Shown piece by piece: positions 38,108-51,971 of a stretch of DNA of 52,034 nt (its first letter is position 1; every line of letters begins with the position of its first letter). Under the pieces are notes generated by a model. That model saw only the letters and a program-made list of their open reading frames with translations. It was not told the origin of the DNA and did no database searches. The position numbers and the translations under genes are program-made. The DNA is from Minisyncoccota bacterium (lineage in GTDB: Bacteria; Patescibacteriota; Minisyncoccia; Phycocordibacterales; UBA9973). The stretch is taken from positions 1-52,034 of the forward strand of contig JAGOQQ010000007.1 of assembly GCA_017991395.1 (NCBI GenBank), in the 5' to 3' direction.

Positions 38108-38200
38108 GGAATCGCCTCTCCTTGCAGTCGAGATGCTCAATTTTTAGCATTCGCAAGCTTATTAAAAATTGGCACCTGCGGTTCGATTCCTACCGGGCGC
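38108..38200 (+). repeat. tRNA-end-linked element, type B copy 1
   Basis: 93 bases closed by GGAATCG at the start and CGATTCC near the end; an inner AATTTTTA/TAAAAATT stem carries a variable loop. Its last ~30 bases repeat the T-arm and acceptor end of the tRNA-Lys (GGTTCGATTCCTAC then CGGGCGC), but on the strand opposite to the real gene. A second copy at 44086-44176 ends in the tRNA-Arg T-arm instead. Confidence 0.7.
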
Positions 38201-38221: not shown

Positions 38222-38350
38222 GGTGGCCGGTAGGAATCTTTCGTTACACGAACAGTATACCTTTTCGAAATATTCGGACAGAGTCCTCATATTTAACGAA
38301 AAGCTTTTCGATTCCTACACGCAAGCCAAGCAGTTGGCTTGCTCGGGCGC
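38222..38350 (+). repeat. tRNA-end-linked structured element, type A copy 1
   Basis: Outer arms copy the tRNA-Lys 3' end: GGTAGGAATC at 38229-38238 pairs with GATTCCTAC, and the acceptor strand CGGGCGC closes it. Inside: hairpin TTCG/CGAA with loop TTACA (38240-38252), the block CAGTATACC, a long stem CTTTTCG...CGAAAAG with an inner GGA/TCC hairpin, then CTTTTCGATTCCTACACG and a hairpin CAAGCCAA/TTGGCTTG with loop GCAG (38322-38341) that splits the tRNA copy between T-stem and acceptor. Confidence 0.75.
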
Positions 38351-38397
38351 ACAAATTAAAAAACCCCCACTTAGGGTTTTTTTAATTTGTGCGCCCG
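38345..38397. terminator. Palindrome joining element A and tRNA-Lys
   Basis: The sequence CGGGCGCACAAATT plus AAAAAACCC is mirrored exactly by GGGTTTTTTT plus AATTTGTGCGCCCG, so the tRNA's 3' end and its terminator fold back on the copied tRNA end. It likely ends the tRNA-Lys transcript. Confidence 0.75.
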
Positions 38398-38462
38398 GTA
38401 GGAATCGAACCTACGACCATCTCCTTAAAAGGGAGCTGCTCTACCGACTGAGCTACGGGCGC
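38390..38462 (-). tRNA. tRNA-Lys (anticodon UUU)
   Basis: Cloverleaf on the minus strand: acceptor GCGCCCG/CGGGCGC, D-arm GCTC/GAGC, anticodon loop CTTTTAA, T-arm GTAGG-TTCGATT-CCTAC. Discriminator base A; CCA is not encoded (ACA follows). The top anticodon-stem pair is a G-A mismatch. A broken 5' copy lies 30 bases upstream. Confidence 0.95.
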
Positions 38463-38493
38463 ATATGTTATTATTTCTTGTTTTCTATTGAAA

Positions 38494-38517
38494 CCGCTAC
38501 AACTGAGCTACGGGCGT
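38494..38517 (-). pseudogene. tRNA-Lys 5' fragment
   Basis: On the minus strand ACGCCCGTAGCTCAGTTG repeats the tRNA-Lys acceptor 5' strand and D-arm, then diverges. It is a remnant of a duplicated tRNA half upstream of the real gene. Confidence 0.7.
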
Positions 38518-38617
38518 ATAATGGCTTATACTATCTTCTTATACTAACTACTCATACTTTCCAGGTAAAACTAGCACAAAAAATACTTTTCTGGTACATT
38601 CAAAAATACCACAAACT

Positions 38618-44016: not shown

Positions 44017-44056
44017 TAGGCGGGAATCTTCCATTACATGGACAGTATACCTTTTC
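44017..44056 (+). repeat. Type A element, truncated copy 2
   Basis: GGCGGGAATC (copy of the tRNA-Arg T-arm) is followed by hairpin TCCA/TGGA with loop TTACA (44030-44042), CAGTATACCTTTTCG and ATTCGGACAGAGT, identical in order to copy 1, then breaks off before the 3' half of the element. Confidence 0.7.
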
Positions 44057-44085
44057 GAAATATTCGGACAGAGTTTAAAACTGAC

Positions 44086-44176
44086 CGGGAATCGCCTCTC
44101 CTTTCAGTCGAGATGCTCAATTTTTAGCATTCACTTCGTTCATTAAAAATTGGCACCTACGGTTCGATTCCCGCCG
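44086..44176 (+). repeat. Type B element, copy 2
   Basis: CGGGAATCG closes with CGATTCCCG; inside are CCTCTCC, CAGTCGAGATGCTC and the AATTTTTA/TAAAAATT stem shared with copy 1. The end now matches tRNA-Arg rather than tRNA-Lys. Confidence 0.7.
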
Positions 44177-44178
44177 CA

Positions 44179-44228
44179 ACATAAAAAAATACCCACCACT
44201 CGAGAGTGGTGGGTATTTTTTTATGTTG
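44179..44228. terminator. Perfect palindrome beside tRNA-Arg
   Basis: Perfect arms of about 25 bases (AACATAAAAAAATACCCACC then ACTC, and the complement) meet at the centre. It terminates the minus-strand tRNA-Arg transcript. Confidence 0.8.
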
Positions 44229-44300
44229 TGATCTCGGCGGGAATCGAACCTGCATTTCTCCCTTCGCAGGGGAGTGTCCTATCCGTTGAACGACGAGATC
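44229..44300 (-). tRNA. tRNA-Arg (anticodon GCG)
   Basis: Minus-strand cloverleaf: acceptor GATCTCG/CGAGATC, D-arm GTTC/GGAC, anticodon stem CTCCC/GGGAG with loop CTGCGAA, T-arm GCAGG-TTCGATT-CCCGC containing one A-C mismatch. Discriminator A, CCA not encoded. GCG rather than the usual ACG (read as ICG) is notable. Confidence 0.93.
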
Positions 44301-47381: not shown

Positions 47382-47530
47382 GCGGAGGCGGTGAGACCGC
47401 GAGTACGCTTTTCGAATCTTACAGATTCAGTACACCTTTTCCTGTTTTGTCGGATTAGTAAATCCTCAAAACATGGAAAAGCTTTTCGAATCTCACACGT
47501 AAAGCACGCAGGTGCTTTACTCGCCTCCGC
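47382..47530 (+). repeat. Type A element, complete copy 3 (tRNA-Ser-like ends)
   Basis: Outer arms GCGGAGGCG (47382-47390) and CGCCTCCGC (47522-47530), next stem GTGAGA/TCTCAC, hairpin GAATC/GATTC with loop TTACA (47414-47428), AGTACACC, long stem CTTTTCC...GGAAAAG with an inner GGATT/AATCC hairpin, CTTTTCGAATCTCACACG, and hairpin TAAAGCAC/GTGCTTTA with loop GCAG (47500-47519). The outer end reads like a tRNA-Ser 3' end with discriminator G. Confidence 0.75.
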
Positions 47531-47577
47531 AAACAAAAATGGCCCGACCAAAGTCGAGCTCATTTTTGTATTTGCGG
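47527..47577. other. Palindrome and broken tRNA-Ser 3' end junction
   Basis: CCGCAAACAAAAATG is mirrored by CATTTTTG-TA-TTTGCGG, as at the tRNA-Lys and tRNA-Arg loci, but where the tRNA gene body should follow the sequence changes at GCGG into the 202-base inverted repeat. Confidence 0.6.
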
Positions 47578-47775
47578 TGTTTGTTGGACAAAGTTCGAAA
47601 CTATTTCGAGCAAAATCCAAATGATTAAAACTACTAATGCGGACTCGGCAAGGCGAAACTATTTTTCTGAGGGAAAGGATTCGCCCTGCCTCGGCTGATT
47701 CCCCGCCCGCAGGAGGGGTCTGGGGAGGAATGCGGGCGGGTTTCGGACTGGGGGTTTTCGGAAATTCGGCGGCTA
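47574..47775 (+). repeat. 202-base inverted repeat, left copy
   Basis: Matches 50075-50276 base for base in reverse complement. Contains two strong internal hairpins (GGCAAGGCGAA with TTCGCCCTGCC; CCCGCCCGCA with TGCGGGCGGG). Its outer part (TGTTGGACAAAGTTCGAA) is also found, diverged, at the 3' end of the recombinase gene. Confidence 0.92.
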
Positions 47776-50074: not shown

Positions 50075-50276
50075 TAGCCGCCGAATTTCCGAAAACCCCC
50101 AGTCCGAAACCCGCCCGCATTCCTCCCCAGACCCCTCCTGCGGGCGGGGAATCAGCCGAGGCAGGGCGAATCCTTTCCCTCAGAAAAATAGTTTCGCCTT
50201 GCCGAGTCCGCATTAGTAGTTTTAATCATTTGGATTTTGCTCGAAATAGTTTCGAACTTTGTCCAACAAACACCGC
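50075..50276 (-). repeat. 202-base inverted repeat, right copy
   Basis: Perfect reverse complement of 47574-47775. It runs on, without break, into 50277-50405, which is an inverted, diverged copy of the last part of the recombinase gene. Confidence 0.92.
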
Positions 50277-50405
50277 CAGAAATCGAAATCGCATTTTGAA
50301 GCCGAATCGGGGTCGGCACAAAGTGCCGACACAAATGTATTCCCCCCAAAAAATCCTGAATCTGAAAGGGTTCGCCACGCTCCGCGTGGCTCCTCGTTTG
50401 CCAAT
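50220..50405 (-). repeat. Upstream inverted terminal repeat of the recombinase unit
   Basis: In reverse complement it parallels 51790-51972: GAGCCACGCGGAGCGTGG hairpin, a GTCGGC hairpin (here GTCGGCAC/GTGCCGAC, there GTCGGCGC/GCGCCGAC, a compensated change), GATTTCTGGCGG/GAATTTTGGCGG, then TGTTGGACAAAGTTCGAA. This places related inverted repeats on both sides of the recombinase. Confidence 0.75.
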
Positions 50406-50411
50406 ACAATT

Positions 50412-51971
50412 ATGAAAAATCAAACCAAAAAGTTTTTTATTTATACTCGCAAGTCTACGGACGACAAAGACAGACAAGTCCGCAGTATTTCTGACCAGTT
50501 AGCGGAACTCAAAGATTTGGCGTTAAAAGAGCAACTTGAAATTGTTGATGTCTTTGTCGAGAAACAGACCGCCAAAATACCAGGTCGCCCAGTATTTAAC
50601 GAAATGTTAGAGCGTATGGAAAAAGGCGAAGCGTCTGGTATTTTGGCGTGGCATCCCGATAGACTTGCGAGAAATAGCGTTGATGGTGGAAAAATAATTT
50701 ATCTTGTTGATACCGAGATTATTCAAGATTTGAAATTCTCAACTTTTTGGTTTGATCCGACACCGCAAGGAAAATTCATGCTTTCAATCGCTTTTTCGCA
50801 ATCCAAGTATTATGTAGACAACTTGTCGGAGAATATAAAGCGAGGTCATCGCAACAAAGTGAAAGACGGAATATGGCCTCAAATGGCTCCACTTGGATAT
50901 GTGAATAAAAATAGAAAAATTGTTCCCGATGAAAATATCGCACCTTTAATCAAGAAAACATTTGAGGCATATTCGTCTGGGTCTTTCACTTTGCGACAAC
51001 TCCGCGACAAATTTAACGGACTTGGATTGAAGCGAAAAAGCGGAAAGGAACTTGCGGTGTCGAATTATCAAAAACTTTTGAAAAATCCGATATACACAGG
51101 TTTAATGCTGTATAACGGCGAAATACACGAAGGAAAACACGAACCGATTATTACAAAGAAACTTTTTGATTCCGTTCAGGAAGTGATGATGAGGAAAAGT
51201 AAACCTCACTCGAAAGGGTTGAAACCATTTTTATACAGAGGATTTTTCCGTTGCGGAGAATGTGGTTGCTTCATTACCACCGAAACACAAAAAGGTCATA
51301 ACTATTTGCGATGTACCAAACGGAAAAATCCTTGCTCACAAAAATATACTCGTGAGGAAATCATCACTTCCGAAATCCAAAATGAAATCAAAAAAGTTTC
51401 TTTGCCAGACGATTGGACAAAATGGATGATTGCCGAAAATACAAAAGATCGGCAATCCGAAGTCCAATCGTCCACGCTTTTTGTGGATTCTGCAAAAGCC
51501 GATATTTCTCTTTTGGATTCTAAAATTGAGAAGCTGATGAACGCTTACTTAGAGAACGCACTTTCGCTTGAAGAATATCGCGATGCTAAAAGTGCGCTGG
51601 TTGCCTCAAAACAGCTTCTCAAAGAGAAATTATCGGCTTTTGAGCAAAAAGCGAATAATCGGTTCGAACTTACCGAAAAGTTTTTGAAATACAATATGGA
51701 ATTGGCAAACGAGGGAACAAATGAAGAAAAACTTCATTTGTACAAAAAAGCCGGTTCGAACTTTATAATTAAGGATCGAACCGTCTTTTTTGAGCCACGC
51801 GGAGCGTGGAAAAACCTTTTGAATTCGGGAATTTTTGGCGGGAATGCGTTTGTGTCGGCGCTTCGCGCCGACCATATTTTTGGCGGAAATTTGAATTCCG
51901 AATTTTGGCGGTATCTGTTGGACAAAGTTCGAATGTTTTTCGAAGAAAATCCAGATGACCAAAACTACTAA
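50412..51971 (+). CDS. Large serine recombinase
   Basis: 519 residues. Resolvase-type catalytic domain with YTRKS (catalytic Ser15) and WHPDRLARN, then the recombinase domain with PLGYVNKNRKIVPDE and LLKNPIYTGLMLYNGEIHEGKHEPI, a zinc ribbon (FRCGECGCFIT...LRCTKRKNPCSQ) and a coiled-coil (about 375-465). Such enzymes cut and rejoin att sites by integration, excision or inversion. The last ~55 codons (FEPRGAWKNLL to the end) lie inside the terminal repeat. ATG 50412 chosen because the upstream frame is repeat DNA. Confidence 0.9.
   Translation: MKNQTKKFFIYTRKSTDDKDRQVRSISDQLAELKDLALKEQLEIVDVFVEKQTAKIPGRPVFNEMLERMEKGEASGILAWHPDRLARNSVDGGKIIYLVDTEIIQDLKFSTFWFDPTPQGKFMLSIAFSQSKYYVDNLSENIKRGHRNKVKDGIWPQMAPLGYVNKNRKIVPDENIAPLIKKTFEAYSSGSFTLRQLRDKFNGLGLKRKSGKELAVSNYQKLLKNPIYTGLMLYNGEIHEGKHEPIITKKLFDSVQEVMMRKSKPHSKGLKPFLYRGFFRCGECGCFITTETQKGHNYLRCTKRKNPCSQKYTREEIITSEIQNEIKKVSLPDDWTKWMIAENTKDRQSEVQSSTLFVDSAKADISLLDSKIEKLMNAYLENALSLEEYRDAKSALVASKQLLKEKLSAFEQKANNRFELTEKFLKYNMELANEGTNEEKLHLYKKAGSNFIIKDRTVFFEPRGAWKNLLNSGIFGGNAFVSALRADHIFGGNLNSEFWRYLLDKVRMFFEENPDDQNY

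Follow-up and report, generated by a model that had tools for sequence, protein, structure and literature searches.

Small or structured DNA elements resembling the one analyzed here fall into several described classes. MITEs and nested palindromic repeats of the RPE and Correia/NEMIS type are non-autonomous and structured and form nested insertions. Genomic islands and prophages at tRNA 3′ ends leave the tRNA intact, have their junction in the T-loop and carry a direct repeat of the tRNA 3′ end. Integron attC sites, which recombine as folded single strands, keep a conserved fold under rewritten sequence, with paired arms and a one-sided extra-helical feature. REP, BIME and REPIN elements with their RAYT proteins are small, gene-less, palindromic and multicopy and are dispersed by factors acting in trans (PMC2817692, PMC3116915, PMC3733652).

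Our subject is a gene-less element of ~90-130 bp, here called type A, from a stretch of 52,034 nucleotides (the window) that is contig 6 of a Minisyncoccota bacterium genome (G000; 762,851 bp in 8 contigs). Type A shares the features just listed, a single-stranded DNA substrate being plausible in its case, and departs from each class in other respects. Unlike MITEs, RPE and Correia/NEMIS repeats, it has no fixed terminal inverted repeats, and its inverted arms belong to the target sequence. Compared with tRNA islands and prophages, it is tiny, lacks an integrase, occurs as one core family at nearly all isotypes and carries an extra, inverted copy of the tRNA end. In contrast to attC sites, its arms copy the neighboring tRNA, its loop is a conserved structured core of ~70-85 nt, it is usually without a cassette gene, and no integron integrase was found in the two genomes searched (G000 and G054). 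In contrast to REP, BIME and REPIN elements, it targets tRNA T-loops, its arms adapt, it packs several hairpins into ~100 bp, and it is unrelated to the local RAYTs. The papers searched for integrons, REPs and repeats that are palindromic or linked to tRNAs contained no description of such elements, and we found no known mobile element that forms gene-less hairpin insertions at tRNA ends with arms rewritten to match each tRNA. Type A is a new variant among bacterial palindromic mobile repeats: widespread, DNA-level, tRNA-targeted, target-adapting and non-autonomous.

Structure of the element at tRNA-Lys

The full-length element at tRNA-Lys(TTT) occupies 38227..38350 on the forward strand (R1 covariance match of 134.5 bits; alignment A1), 39 bp from the 3′ end of its host tRNA, which lies on the reverse strand at 38389..38462 (ARAGORN, Rfam). 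Its parts are given on the forward strand. The left arm GGTAGGAATC (38229..38238; sequence and arm statistics) is the antisense T-stem/T-loop of tRNA-Lys and the end of the distal direct repeat. It is followed by P1, a small core hairpin in the TTTCG-TTACA-CGAA region (38239..38252; two-sided changes in 5/5 pairs), by the conserved single-stranded core CAGTATACC (38253..38261), of which almost every column is invariant in A1, and by P2 with its inner stem, a long, covarying core hairpin CTTTTCG...CGAAAAG (38261..38303). The right arm TTTTCGATTCCTAC (38305..38318) is the sense T-loop/T-stem of tRNA-Lys, an inverted copy relative to the left arm, and matches its own tRNA perfectly. Between the T-stem and acceptor copies stands P3, an inserted hairpin ACGCAAGCCAAGCAGTTGGCTTGCT with a GCAG loop (38319..38343; 9/9 pairs covary). 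A palindrome assigned to neither strand (38344..38397; inverted repeat I5, 96%) brings together the inverted copy of the acceptor, a hairpin resembling a terminator and the acceptor end of the tRNA. In the direction of the tRNA strand, the intact tRNA is followed by the terminator palindrome, the inverted copy of the acceptor, the hairpin with the GCAG loop (as its complement), the inverted T-arm copy, the conserved core hairpins and, last, the tRNA 3′ end repeated in direct orientation.

In the window (38447-38465 and 38502-38520), at L011 (~1720-1830) and at L109 (5340-5560), tRNA 5′ ends are duplicated and accompanied by a conserved module, GCTCGGACTTTATCCTG..CAGGGAACTGAGCTA; this is apparently another family of elements, located at the 5′ ends of tRNAs.

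Other copies and elements in the window

A truncated type A copy at tRNA-Arg(GCG) (44017..44074, forward strand) shares 92% identity with the Lys copy across 52 nt and is fused to an element of a second kind, type B (44088..44180, forward strand; repeat families D3/D4), which has a different core at the same T-loop position. The host tRNA-Arg(GCG) lies at 44228..44300 on the reverse strand (ARAGORN). Another type B element of the same repeat families adjoins the Lys copy (38108..38200, forward strand). The type B core in both reads GCCTCTCCTT-CAGTCGAGATGCTC...TTAAAAATTGGCACC, and the GCAG hairpin is absent from it.

The first-pass annotation had placed three copies beside tRNA-Lys, tRNA-Arg and tRNA-Ser ends. 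The first two assignments stand, the Arg copy being truncated and fused to type B. The type A copy with tRNA-Ser arms (47402..47528, forward strand; R1 107 bits) has no tRNA within 3 kb, and ARAGORN and Rfam detect tRNA-Lys and tRNA-Arg and nothing else in the window. The only tRNA that its arms match is tRNA-Ser(TGA) at the start of contig 7 (G000:C7:1921). Outside the element, its terminator is abutted by a remnant of the 3′ end of a large serine recombinase gene (47573..47635, forward strand), which repeats the tail of the gene at window 50259-51971, and the end of the window and the start of contig 7 have a repeat in common. The abutting recombinase tails and this shared repeat suggest that later serine-recombinase insertions separated the Ser copy from its tRNA. 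The gene at 50259-51971 and another at G000:C7 422-1933 encode Ccr-like large serine recombinases, and 3′-end copies of such genes abut tRNA-Ser acceptor sequences, the Ser copy and the type A copy at L001.

Distribution among genomes

A pattern search of the whole source genome for CAGTAYACCTTTTC with 0-1 mismatch returned 14 copies, and the 3-kb loci around them contain genes for tRNA-Ile, Trp, Tyr, Lys, Arg, Val, Thr and Glu. Seven full copies were aligned (A1), RNAalifold predicted 39 pairs on this alignment, 27 of them with two-sided changes, and the covariance model R1 was built. With 31 R1 matches at E<=1, we estimate ~23-31 type A copies in this 0.76-Mb genome. R1 matches are present in 75/99 genomes of the family (Nomurabacteria/Paceibacteria), covering 18/24 genera, and the richest genomes have up to 31-36 matches each. 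Across the phylum, 13/380 genomes had matches, most of them from the same order. By organism name, contigs with the exact core motif belong mainly to Nomurabacteria, Zambryskibacteria, Taylorbacteria, Vogelbacteria and other Paceibacterota.

A search of plasmids and phages gave no type A matches, and of four pattern matches in IMG/VR only one, at L323, is a genuine copy; it is located at a tRNA near serine recombinase genes. A phage or plasmid origin was rejected on the strength of these searches.

In four loci of the source genome (L010, L011, L013 and L014), an extra hairpin of ~33 nt (CC.TCTTCGT..ACTACGAACGGG..AAGC) follows TTAC in the conserved TTACA loop and constitutes a nested insertion. 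A third core, type C (GGTCAC...GAATATTTTTC..GAAAAATT...CGCGACCCCGCC), sits in tRNA T-arms with the same GCAG hairpin (L099 5220-5364, L097 9969-10134, L003 near 1540 and L168 885-945), and a palindrome related to it is an abundant intergenic repeat in genus g21.

Position at tRNA 3′ ends and match of the arms to the local tRNA

Further copies near tRNAs, whose absence would have spoken against the first-pass annotation, proved to be many: a convergent tRNA 3′ end lies within 120 bp of 91/136 R1 matches (median 41 bp; 36 anticodons). In an independent set defined by the core motif only, 63/118 were within 260 nt of a tRNA, against ~3 expected from tRNA density by our own estimate. The 45/136 matches with no tRNA within 120 bp include second copies in arrays, copies at contig ends, copies split off by other insertions, and a truly intergenic subclass, which is marked by CTGTACACCTTTTGG and CTTGCG-hairpin-CTCACC ends and sits inside other palindromes. 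One intergenic copy lies upstream of pth in G075 and is absent from the relatives that we read. The idea that intergenic copies make inverted repeats of any flank was dropped, because the inverted arms at pth belong to another palindromic repeat that is also present in relatives without type A.

The arms follow the host tRNA, as had been proposed from the three copies in the window. The LCS of right and left arms averages 10.7 nt with the own tRNA and 5.4-5.8 nt with other isotypes. The nine-base right T-arm equals the own tRNA exactly in 59/91 copies (null 1.0%) and is >=8/9 identical in 77/91 (null 5.8%). Left arms are often decayed, with helix 1 68.6% paired. For 80/91 copies the nearest core is at another tRNA, a figure to be read with caution, since many cores are only ~50% identical. 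Copies at different tRNAs whose cores are >=80% identical were also compared (50 pairs): in 83/100 comparisons the arms suit their own tRNA better, and in 4 they suit it worse. Cores travel from one tRNA to another, and their flanking arms follow whichever tRNA is local.

Pairing constraint in DNA

The constant segments TTACA, CAGTAYACC, GCAG and ACG..CT and the rewritten stems that the first-pass annotation had reported are real, and the covariation holds in the larger set: 38/39 pairs have two-sided changes across 136 copies, which is not due to chance. In these copies 91.6% of the cells are paired, compared with 62% after shuffling and 34-49% with slid partners, and 1341 cells are two-sided, compared with 364 in shuffles. 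The 136-copy alignment was fitted to the model, a bias toward pairing, of which a test of G.T/A.C symmetry is independent. P1-P3 of the 100 best copies comprise ~2740 cells, of which 24 are G.T and 21 A.C; G.T makes up ~0.9%, against 6.1% in 129 tRNAs from the same loci. The wobble tolerance typical of RNA is seen on neither strand of type A. Because G.T is as rare as A.C, unlike in the neighboring tRNAs, the data argue for a pairing constraint that acts on DNA hairpins and not on RNA. Of the folded RNA or single-stranded DNA originally envisaged, the data favor the DNA.

Strong covariation, constant loops and a fixed position relative to tRNAs are also what might be expected of a structured RNA transcribed antisense to every tRNA trailer, such as a regulatory RNA or one that acts in tRNA processing. 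We nevertheless consider such an RNA very unlikely, given the scarcity of G.T and its equality with A.C, the occupation of the same tRNA in one genome and not in a close relative, and the result of searching Rfam covariance models at gathering score, in which tRNAs were the only matches and no model matched type A. The G.T/A.C symmetry and the missing Rfam match rule out an RNA gene as the main reading. The symmetry fits either selection on DNA hairpins or homogenization of inverted repeats by template switching, which is documented to rewrite hairpin stems (PMC8794818).

Occupied and empty sites

That type A is a mobile element using tRNA 3′ ends, as had been suggested, is supported by sites that bear direct repeats and are occupied in some genomes and empty in others. 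Within one genus, G083 has an insertion at tRNA-Met and another at tRNA-Asp, and both tRNAs are uninterrupted in G071 and G062; the tRNA-Met insertion is bounded by the direct repeat AGTCCTCCCACCGACACA. The tRNA-Thr insertion is present in G083, G071 and G062 alike. In genus g21 the polymorphic sites also comprise tRNA-Pro, Asp and Gly(GCC), and beyond the distal repeat at the Pro site of G073 another terminator, apparently the native one, can still be seen. At this site the element seems to have supplied a new terminator next to the tRNA, the native one being displaced behind the insertion. Direct repeats of the tRNA 3′ end reach up to ~18-21 nt. Any single empty site could also have arisen by precise loss through recombination between direct repeats, and the direction of change is not proved.

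Perfect, rapidly rewritten stems, the terminator included, together with reports that hairpins are made and mended by template switching (PMC8794818), raise the alternative that nothing moves at all and that template switching during replication leaves the palindromes behind at tRNA terminators as by-products. We judge this decidedly unlikely: a common core at 36 anticodons and in 18 genera requires copying between loci, and unoccupied sites exist.

Genes between copies

At L096, L082, L106 and L155 the cargo between copies comprises the Ham1 family (twice), DUF84, an ART-like protein and orphans. The genes of Ham1 or DUF84 type (NTP pyrophosphatase) are enclosed by a pair of type A copies in three separate loci, L082 4375-4887, L106 8510-9031 and L155 965-1582.

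An integron-like system, in which the tRNA 3′ end would play the part of attI and type A that of a folded, attC-like single-strand site ending gene cassettes, would account for paired arms, a one-sided extra hairpin and a structured loop. It would also account for near-identical copies that flank small genes at one tRNA (L096 8380/9894; L082 4171/6067, with the Ham1 and ART-like genes) and for the genes between copies at L106 (DUF84) and L155 (Ham1). Most inspected copies, however, have no gene, and neither G000 nor G054 has an integron integrase, their tyrosine recombinase scoring 124/121 bits against the TIGR02249 cut-off of 265 and being XerA-like. Moreover, the gene-bearing segments that were inspected have their breakpoints at the tRNA acceptor, a position that serine-recombinase remnants adjoin as well. 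The small genes between copies are suggestive of cassettes; because some breakpoints fall at that acceptor position, we do not claim an integron and hold one to be unlikely.

Search for the mover

The association with a recombinase or reverse transcriptase that had been proposed was tested and not found. No mobility gene recurs beside the copies (100+ of them): ORF clusters of 119 loci are mostly host housekeeping genes, and a cis-encoded partner or integrase was rejected on this ground. Among Y1 proteins, reverse transcriptases, serine recombinases and tyrosine recombinases, no family is present in every carrier genome sampled. Reverse transcriptase (RVT_1) is absent in the carriers G000, G054, G012 and G002, and reverse transcription or tRNA priming was rejected as several carriers lack the enzyme.

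Small palindromes are typical RAYT clients, and Y1 proteins occur in 66/99 genomes, so type A could be thought to comprise REP-like elements of RAYT (Y1) transposases or IS200/IS605 relatives. This is extremely improbable, since G000, G012, G002, G028, G071 and others, all rich in copies, have no Y1 match, and 20 Y1 loci (19 RAYT-size, one IS200-size) have no R1 match. Most of the RAYT genes that we inspected have unrelated palindromes of their own on their flanks. As for the IS200/IS605 hallmarks of no target duplication and a Y1 gene in the genome, direct repeats are present and several carriers are without a Y1 match. RAYT/REP was accordingly rejected on the lack of a Y1 match in G000 and on the unrelated REPs. 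The RAYT genes at L184-L202 have perfect palindromes of their own (e.g. TAGGTCTTGCCTA), which differ between genomes.

Serine recombinases are common, yet PF00239 has no match in, for example, G044 and G087, with 14 copies each. They were rejected as the mover in view of such carriers, of the remnants that abut the tRNA acceptor and of their apparent role in separating copies from tRNAs; they appear to integrate separately from type A. A single XerA-like tyrosine recombinase is nearly universal, being the one PF00589 protein of G000 (G000:C8, ~168.3-169.3 kb), and was not found in the G075 assembly, which has 31+ type A copies. Our guess is that this enzyme is a candidate for the mover.

Discussion

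We propose, with a probability of roughly 0.6, that type A copies are non-autonomous palindromic DNA insertion elements of Nomurabacteria-like Paceibacteria, with the tRNA T-loop as preferred target and with arms homogenized to the target by template switching. Against this speak the failure to find an enzyme, the frequent decay of left arms, the 45/136 matches with no tRNA within 120 bp and the alternative origin of empty sites by loss. In the proposed scheme a trans-acting recombinase, possibly the lone XerA-like enzyme, would act on a hairpin or cruciform form of the DNA and insert it site-specifically at the T-arm dyad. Because the element would bring a tRNA 3′ end with it, the tRNA would be restored and stay whole. 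The presence of one core at 36 anticodons implies copying between loci, and after a jump to another tRNA the imperfect inverted arms, with the terminator stems, would be rewritten to the new host by replication template switching between imperfect inverted repeats. Template switching alone does not explain the constant GCAG hairpin within the inverted arm, at the T-stem/acceptor boundary, and this hairpin may be a recognition feature.

We also entertain, more tentatively, a target-copying element, whose conserved DNA hairpin core would enter the T-loop of any tRNA and whose flanking arms would be made on the spot by backward copying of the tRNA end, so that one core could colonize nearly all tRNA genes of a genome and leave them unharmed. 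Its core end TTTTCG would match the near-universal T-loop TTCGA. If true, mobility of this kind would rely on recombination sites that derive from the target and renew themselves.

The strong covariation of type A is a warning that such a signal can come from DNA-level constraint and not only from RNA. Mobile elements of this kind would show to what extent functional DNA hairpins are kept up by template switching, and arms rewritten per target would amount to a natural, evolving target specificity without an encoded guide. For the biology of Patescibacteria, up to ~30 copies at tRNA genes in otherwise streamlined 0.7-Mb genomes are notable, and they would make the tRNA 3′ ends of these uncultured bacteria readable as insertion histories.
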